A DNA stretch of 56,932 bases from a virus: IMG/VR virus record IMGVR_UViG_3300040781_000267, positions 1 through 56,932 of that record; one strand, 5' to 3'. Below, piece by piece: positions 29,498 to 30,625 of the stretch. The translations under genes were made by a program, and so were the position numbers. Positions within the stretch are counted from its first letter, which is position 1. Every line of letters begins with the position of its first letter. The notes under the pieces were generated by a model, which saw only the letters and a list, made by a program, of their open reading frames with translations, had not been told where the DNA came from and did not search any database.

Positions 29498-30625
29498 TTA
29501 AAACTCGTAACCAACTGCTGCGTTAAATACGCCGTCTCCGCCACTAGTTGAGCCTGCTGCACCAAACTTGAATACAACCTTCTCAGTCGAACGGAATGAC
29601 ACACCCACTGCAACGCCAGTTTCGCCTTTGTACTCACCAAGGCCTGCGCTGACTTGAGTCTTACCAACACCGTATGCCTGTGGTAGGCCAGCAAGTGCTG
29701 CTGCCATGGACATACCGCGCTGATACTCTTTCTGCAGGTTGTCGTTCATCTTCTGAGCCTTCAAGGCTTCGTCGAGGGCGCTGCTAATTTCGGCTTTTTG
29801 TGCATCGGTAAACTCGGCAGGAGCACCTTGATCACCCTTGTCACCCTTGTCGCCTTTGTCACCCTTGTCGCCTTTGTCACCCTTGAGCGATGCAGTCCAT
29901 TCTTCTTCGGTGCCTTCGTAGCCATTTTTTACTGCCACTTCGTATGCCGAATCTCCGGTTGCACCAGTATCACCCTTGTCGCCTTTGGCTCCGTGCGATC
30001 CAGCTGAGCCTGCGCTACCCTGAGAACCGGTATCGCCCTTGTCGCCTTTGGCTCCAGTTGCACCAGTATCACCCTTGTCACCTTTCTCGCCCTGGGCTCC
30101 AGTTGCACCAGTATCGCCTTTCTCGCCCTTGTCGCCTTTGTCGCCTTTATCGCCTTTCTCGCCCTGGGCACCGGTATCGCCCTTGTCACCCTTGTCACCT
30201 TTCTCGCCCTGGGCGCCGTCTTGGCCCTGGAGAGCACTAAGGTCTACTGCTACTTCGCGTCTGGAGATATCACCATCGGCGCCAGGTACCATATCTTGGG
30301 TGTAAAGCTTCAGCGTCTGTGAGTTCGAATCGTAATGTCCGTCGACCAGGCGCTGATCTTCGTCGTTTACCTGCTCAATACGTATACGCAAAGCGTCGAT
30401 CTCGGCTTGATCAGCAGGCGCACCTGGGATGCCCTGTGGGCCTTGTGGTCCGACTTCGCCCTGTGGGCCTTGTGGTCCGGGCGGGCCAATTTCGCCCTGT
30501 GGGCCTTGACAGTTGTTGCCGTTATTACCACAGTCGTTTTTTGCATATGCTTGCGGGGTCGCAAACAGGGATACGCTAAACAGAAATGCTGCGGCCACAG
30601 CAAACAGTTTACTTTGATTTTTCAT
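29498..30625 (-). CDS. collagen-like trimeric autotransporter (YadA-type anchor)
   Basis: About 375 residues from the ATG at 30625 (GAGG upstream; an in-frame GTG at 30631 is the alternative). A signal peptide ([19 protein letters not shown]) leads to Gly-x-y repeats at about 38-70 and 130-275 ([16 protein letters not shown]). A short helical stalk follows, then a C-terminal domain ([20 protein letters not shown] through to the final AAVGYEF) that matches the YadA anchor, which forms a trimeric outer-membrane barrel. The product would be displayed on the infected host cell as a collagen-like trimer. Phage collagen repeats usually sit in tail fibres, so an exported, anchored form is striking. 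Confidence 0.85.
29820..30225 (-). repeat. collagen-coding repeat tract
   Basis: Tandem 9-base units coding Gly-x-y, mainly variants of GGCGACAAG and GGCGAGAAAG, with higher-order duplications of 27-45 bases. Length variation by recombination or slippage is likely. Confidence 0.85.

Follow-up and report, generated by a model that had tools for sequence, protein, structure and literature searches.

YadA, Hia and AtaA are proteins of the type Vc secretion pathway with trimeric membrane anchors, and autoagglutination is a classic property of YadA-type proteins. Phages code for such proteins as well. The immunoglobulin-binding Eib proteins of lambdoid prophages are YadA-anchored, and their genes lie directly behind the tail genes of temperate phages. 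Trimeric collagen is also phage-coded, as in the EPcl prophage tail fibres of E. coli O157, which have phage-fibre N and C domains and no YadA anchor among their listed domains (PMC3368898).

In virulent phages, known examples are phiEco32 gp119 and the FSL SP-058 “agglutinating adhesin” (Kuravirus and Ithacavirus), a GenBank name that seems to reflect homology. Both combine a Sec-type signal, a collagen stalk (22 and 44 triplets, respectively), a coiled coil and a YadA anchor, and both are coded away from the tail genes. The gp119 gene is located at 69.7 kb of the 77.5-kb phiEco32 genome, at its right end; this end is documented as the early region and lies across from the late virion module (PMC9965538). 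It was noted in 2013 that the yadA homologues of Salmonella phages are not close to tail genes (PMC3728262). Jumbo phages also have proteins of this kind, among them GAP32_424, Munch_428, FLC9 gp240 and the adhesins of Kaldavass and XbC2. Among openly accessible papers, none was found that examines the function of a YadA-anchored protein from a lytic phage.

The locus analysed here is located in a 56.9-kb fragment of a jumbo myovirus (the window, the whole stretch of viral DNA that was analysed). Judged by its anatomy, the product of this myovirus gene would belong to the type Vc trimeric autotransporters. It resembles phiEco32 gp119 and the SP-058 adhesin in its order of parts, in the virulent phage that codes for it and in the position of its gene. 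However, those proteins have a single collagen block, come from phages that are not jumbo and carry anchors of the “MANIPQV” lineage, about 40% identical to that of the window. The GAP32, Munch, Kaldavass and XbC2 adhesins share the signal–stalk–anchor plan and come from jumbo phages with related sheaths, but they are longer (441–841 aa), their anchors fall in another clade, and collagen is found only in Munch (21 triplets) and, weakly, in Kaldavass (8). Burkholderia phage FLC9 gp240 has other features in common with it, being a jumbo-phage protein with a signal peptide, an anchor outside the main phage clade and a CGN..C motif at the mature N-terminus, as in the window protein, although it has 721 aa and no collagen stalk. 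The Eib proteins have the nearest phage anchors by BLAST (41%) but differ in their temperate phages, their different passenger and the absence of collagen. Finally, the anchor fold and sequence are common to the window protein and YadA, Hia and AtaA, from which it differs in its collagen passenger, its viral origin and the lack of a detectable YadA head domain.

Anatomy of the Adhesin Gene

The adhesin gene and its parts are as follows:

29498-30625, minus strand: whole adhesin gene, 375 aa (signal peptide, collagen, spacer, collagen, coiled coil, YadA anchor)
30633-30638, minus strand: ribosome-binding site AGAGGT, 7 nt 5´ of the adhesin ATG, read from the sequence
30542-30625, minus strand: Sec-type signal peptide, aa 1-28, by inspection and hydropathy
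30506-30541, minus strand: short linker or mature N-terminus with two Cys, by inspection
30416-30505, minus strand: collagen block 1, aa 41-70, 10 Gly-X-Y triplets, by triplet count
30227-30415, minus strand: non-collagen spacer, aa 71-133 (~63 aa), from the sequence
29948-30226, minus strand: collagen block 2, aa 134-226, 31 triplets, GDK/GEK-rich, by triplet count
29882-29947, minus strand: interruption, aa 227-248 (22 aa), from the sequence
29819-29881, minus strand: collagen block 3, aa 249-269, 7 triplets, by triplet count
29690-29806, minus strand: long helix (coiled coil into the barrel), aa 274-312, from the AlphaFold2 model
29501-29683, minus strand: YadA anchor PF03895, aa 315-375, four strands per chain, C-terminal F, by Pfam, phmmer, AlphaFold2, Foldseek and VIA
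29453-29476, minus strand: 10-bp stem with UUCG loop, directly after the adhesin stop (folding z -4.25; 0/200 shuffles equally stable)

The preferred start of the reading frame is the ATG at 30625; the longest start offered by the ORF tool is the GTG at 30631. The product begins with a basic n-region and a hydrophobic core (mean KD 2.45) followed by AYA, after which the signal peptide is predicted to be cleaved. Inspection and hydropathy thus bear out the Sec signal of the preliminary description. The mature N-termini of the window protein and of the FLC9 and phiEco32 adhesins are all Asn/Gly-rich with cysteine, and a disulfide cap common to the three is possible.

The collagen nature of the stalk is clear from the Pfam Collagen match (8e-24) and from the 31-triplet run of block 2, a length reached in none of 20,000 shuffles of the same residues (shuffle maximum, 9). 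The long Gly-X-Y tract described earlier is, however, not a single one: three tracts are separated by the ~63-aa domain and the 22-aa break. The spacer domain begins with a short helix-like part, and its later portion is possibly a trimeric beta segment. The DNA of block 2 is a tandem array with periods of 9, 18, 27, 36 and 45 bp, so the length of the collagen run may vary easily. Pfam detects only Collagen and YadA_anchor in the protein, with no YadA- or Eib-type head domain; no known ligand site was found either. The hairpin behind the gene is terminator-like and very stable, with a weak T run, and the terminator scan made no call at this position.

The YadA Anchor

The C-terminal residues of the protein match PF03895 end to end (1-60/60; aa 315-375) with an E value of 4.9e-15, above the cut-off. 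A phmmer search recovers YadA (2lme, 5e-11) and also Hia. The protein ends in ..AAVGYEF, with an aromatic F as the last residue, the Bam signal of type Vc proteins.

The last 110 residues were modelled by AlphaFold2 as a single chain, using an alignment of 32 sequences from the window and the fetched loci. The model consists of one helix (aa 274-312) and four strands, with a mean pLDDT of 90. By Foldseek and VIA, its five best PDB matches are the membrane anchors of Hia, YadA and AtaA (Z 11.2-13.0; TMq to Hia of up to 0.83), while the next unrelated row has a Z of only 5.6. The YadA-type anchor proposed at the outset is therefore confirmed by the full-length Pfam match and by these best structural matches. 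As for the 12-strand barrel named at the outset, the chain fold agrees with it in a monomer model; the modelled chain would be one third of such a barrel, provided that it trimerises as Hia and YadA do.

Genomic Context

The tail sheath coded in the window is 47% identical to that of Pseudomonas phage PA5oct and 44% identical to that of Agrobacterium phage Atu_ph07, and the Mimasvirus group holds further relatives. The window also carries RIIA and RIIB genes. On the basis of this jumbo lineage, the window being a fragment, the phage is considered virulent. Other features of the window are the following:

32751-43770: tail-fibre and tailspike-like genes, by Pfam and PHROGs
35630-38012, minus strand: two adjacent proteins of 395 and 392 aa with near-identical N-termini (VRLTGKVTLENNVRIKPGFTINFPT), tandem duplicated genes in the fibre module
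31883-31911, minus strand: 12/12 sigma70-type promoter TTGACA-17-TATAAT, upstream of the small-gene cluster preceding the adhesin
55226-55831, minus strand: OMP_b-brl outer-membrane barrel with signal peptide (PF13505, 1.4e-15)
24669-25280, minus strand: 203-aa protein with a strong signal peptide, strand-rich-looking and F-ending, from the sequence
22953-23507, minus strand: signal peptide followed by a GmrSD_C/HNH nuclease domain (8.7e-10), just upstream of RIIA
50899-51128, minus strand: permuted two-piece tmRNA (Rfam RF04321, 72.6 bits)
52509-54068, minus strand: complete isopropylmalate/citramalate-synthase-like enzyme (HMGL-like 2.4e-93 and LeuA_dimer 1.3e-30)
44850-46466, minus strand: TROVE/Ro60-like RNA-binding protein (PF05731 1.6e-14; phrog_850)
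15193-15657, minus strand: phrog “cysteine dioxygenase” (1.3e-47), without a Pfam match

The adhesin gene lies about 2 kb from the tail-fibre module, which starts at 32751. The interval contains a gene for a signal-peptide protein, small genes, an NT5C nucleotidase and phrog_4593; the last two and a 249-aa protein without assignment are the neighbours of the adhesin. A 150-bp gap lies ahead of the gene. The candidate promoter at 31883-31911 would drive the small-gene cluster, and read-through from it to the adhesin is only a possibility. Sigma70-like sites near the adhesin occur at chance number in a 10-kb scan, and only 12/12 sites were used. A T4-type late promoter was considered and rejected, as TATAAATA is found at chance level in the window and is absent at the adhesin gene. 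Across the whole window, ten sites are near-perfect sigma70-type promoters, matching at 11-12 of 12 positions; every one of them is on the minus strand, and they include those at 16986-17014, 22942-22970, 27435-27462 and 54968-54996.

Several other products appear to be directed to the envelope. The protein coded at 55226-55831 is a second predicted outer-membrane protein, and the 203-aa product of 24669-25280, for which Pfam and PHROGs gave no match, may be another, small barrel of the outer membrane. The exported nuclease-like protein perhaps acts on incoming DNA in the periplasm. Together with a lipoprotein-like protein and further exported proteins, these genes suggest that the phage has several means of changing the host envelope. 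Permuted tmRNAs occur typically in alphaproteobacteria and in a few further groups, and the one found here may be a hint to the host. The synthase-like enzyme is an unusual metabolic gene for a phage.

Relatives in Virulent Phages

Searches with the window anchor recovered Eib prophage proteins first and then many virulent phages, and the FSL SP-058 anchor as query gave 76 phage records. Besides the window, no fewer than 18 virulent phages code for signal–stalk–YadA-anchor proteins, phiEco32, GAP32 and Munch among them. The 18 representatives that were read come from Kuravirus, Schitoviridae, Ackermannviridae, Vequintavirinae, Straboviridae, several jumbo phages and others. All of them have an N-terminal hydrophobic signal-like segment, the annotated starts of the phiEco32 and LIET2 adhesins having been shifted to an internal Met for this reading, and the anchor ends at the C-terminus or one or two residues short of it. 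An LKSSGDQW motif just after the signal is common to the adhesins of unrelated Erwinia, Salmonella and Xanthomonas phages and possibly marks a swapped distal domain.

In the gene contexts that were read, the adjoining genes are small hypotheticals, tRNAs, dUTPase and similar genes, and not tail genes. The adhesin gene adjoins dUTPase in SP-058 and S6, and it lies near tRNAs in GAP32, Hena1 and Kaldavass and near dCMP deaminase in Bue1; in RF1, it is four genes from one for tail-fibre assembly. The window protein conforms to the plan of this virulent-phage class (signal, variable stalk, C-terminal PF03895 and a gene outside the tail module), with a different anchor lineage. It thus joins a class that is already visible in databases as “adhesin” and has barely been studied, and whose recurrence in lytic phages the preliminary description does not mention.

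Viral contigs were scanned one protein at a time, using the anchor and the downstream protein, and no close relative of the window adhesin was found. PF03895 is matched in GAP32, Munch, FLC9 and six further large viral contigs, which were chosen for having the match, and is without a match in CBB, PA5oct and Atu_ph07. This patchy presence among related jumbo phages is as expected of accessory cargo. The closest sheath relative (63%, on a 69-kb contig) also has no anchor match, but, judging by where the sheath lies, it overlaps the window by only a few kb and is uninformative.

Origin of the Anchor and the Collagen Stalk

A tree of 89 anchor sequences (86 columns; bacterial rows fetched with an FQPY-type pattern) places 17 of the 18 virulent-phage anchors in one group with support of 100/99. 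The window and FLC9 anchors fall on the other side of the tree, among bacterial and Eib anchors. The window anchor has a long branch and only an approximate position, and its highest identity to any row is 44%. Since it lies outside the clade holding most virulent-phage anchors, it was probably acquired separately from those of GAP32, Munch and phiEco32. The idea that the main clade is exclusive to phages was discarded, because a direct search of 149 Enterobacteriaceae genomes gave ten strong matches to anchors of the same type in chromosomes (E about 1e-29 or better; prophage regions, if any, included).

When a run of at least 8 triplets is taken as a collagen stalk, 8 of 32 virulent-phage proteins have one, and these represent six lineages if close relatives are roughly merged. 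Not one of 49 untruncated bacterial proteins has such a stalk (1/89 when truncated frames are counted), and neither does any prophage-type protein. The difference between phage and bacterial carriers (Fisher p about 3e-4, for non-independent samples fetched by anchor patterns) is no more than suggestive; rod-like collagen stalks may be preferred in the phage versions of YadA-anchored proteins.

Location on the Infected Cell or in the Virion

With a signal peptide, collagen and a complete YadA anchor joined in one reading frame, the protein is far more readily placed on the surface of the infected cell than anywhere else, in line with the exported collagen–YadA protein first described, and display on the host outer membrane is strongly inferred from these parts. 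The main alternative is that the protein is a virion tail or whisker fibre, with the collagen rod as a tail appendage and the anchor reduced to a trimerisation tip. Tail fibres of phages often contain collagen and are the best PHROGs matches of the protein via its collagen part, and phrog_26246 “tail protein” matches both collagen and anchor. However, a tail assembled in the cytoplasm would have no obvious use for a cleavable Sec signal or for a complete outer-membrane anchor whose last residue is aromatic. Collagen-like tail fibres have phage-fibre N and C domains and no export signal, a combination that the window adhesin does not show, and the large tail-fibre genes of the window itself start without signal peptides. 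The adhesin gene is about 2 kb from those genes, but the genes of its relatives are usually outside tail modules, even though their products are often labelled “tail protein”, “tail fiber” or “receptor binding protein”, besides “adhesin” and “hypothetical”. A “YadA domain” protein, not necessarily one with a signal peptide or the anchor, is found in cyanophage virions (PMC9146016), and the “YadA domain” of a pelagiphage tail fibre matched the head structure 3S6L, not the anchor (PMC3909814). The jumbo relative CBB has hair-like whiskers whose gene is unassigned (PMC5259590), but this phage has no PF03895 match at all. Finally, the relative fHe-Yen8-01_092 is annotated “phage particle associated”, a label that does not discriminate because it is common to DNA primase, DNA methyltransferases, endolysin and an anti-restriction protein of the same phage. 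A virion location is accordingly considered improbable.

Slightly less probable still is a role in adhesion to a larger host or surface, comparable to Eib-like lysogenic conversion, in which the phage persists and the bacterium profits. The Eib proteins of temperate phages have related anchors, and the tree sets the window anchor among bacterial and Eib-type ones. Against this, the window belongs to a virulent jumbo lineage with RIIA/RIIB, although a lysogeny or carrier-state gene could sit outside the fragment; the protein has no detectable head domain of either type, and its gene is not just behind the tail genes of a temperate lambdoid phage, as eib genes are. The least likely reading, to which very little weight is given, is a captured bacterial gene passing through without a selected function. 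It would account for the patchy distribution, the lack of close relatives and a gene GC of 0.55 against about 0.44 in the surroundings, a value that comes partly from glycine codons. Nevertheless, the ORF is intact, with a good ribosome-binding site and a strong hairpin behind it; an anchor at most 44% identical to any tree row argues against fresh capture from a sampled bacterium; and the same plan recurs in many unrelated phages, with collagen stalks enriched in the phage versions.

Proposed Role of the Adhesin

The reading preferred here, and held with good though not full confidence, is that of a phage-made type Vc protein on the outer membrane of the infected cell, acting as accessory cargo and most likely as a surface brush. 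In this model, each chain would cross the inner membrane by Sec, after which Bam would insert the C-terminal strands of three chains into the host outer membrane as a single barrel. From there, the coiled coil and the ~48 collagen triplets would project away from the infected cell, the N-terminus outermost; the triplets would span an estimated 40 nm or so if fully extended (0.29 nm/residue). The adhesin would thus belong to the accessory cargo for host takeover and not to the tail fibres, and a stiff surface brush would change what touches the infected cell during the jumbo-phage cycle. As no head domain or known ligand site was found, a spacer or brush fits better than a specific receptor binder.

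Two functions can be proposed for such a brush, neither of them above an even chance. It might block the access of further phages by steric superinfection exclusion, which is ranked slightly ahead, or it might, more tentatively, clump cells so that released virions meet new hosts. For pelagiphages, a similar idea has been put forward, in which phage-encoded curli genes serve to capture siblings (PMC7029224). The clustering, receptor blocking and altered sinking of cells suggested at the outset would for now be guesses.

Implications for Virulent Phages

It is conceivable, although this is put forward with reserve, that the YadA anchor has been captured again and again by virulent phages and used, in many cases together with collagen rods that are rare in its bacterial users, to build a stiff brush on the infected cell as a general strategy of surface remodelling. 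If true, this strategy has gone unrecognised, hidden in databases among tail proteins, adhesins and hypotheticals. The recurrence of the plan in lytic phages, together with the frequent tail labels, is the more interesting outcome. If the reading is right, a class that extends across podo-, sipho-, myo- and jumbo phages, and that is often labelled as tail or receptor-binding proteins, should act on the host surface. This would affect host-range prediction from sequence and the safety screening of phages for therapy, where an adhesin gene in a lytic phage is of concern. The isolated phages phiEco32 and GAP32 make the class directly testable, and its study would bear on how lytic phages protect or reorganise the cell that they occupy.
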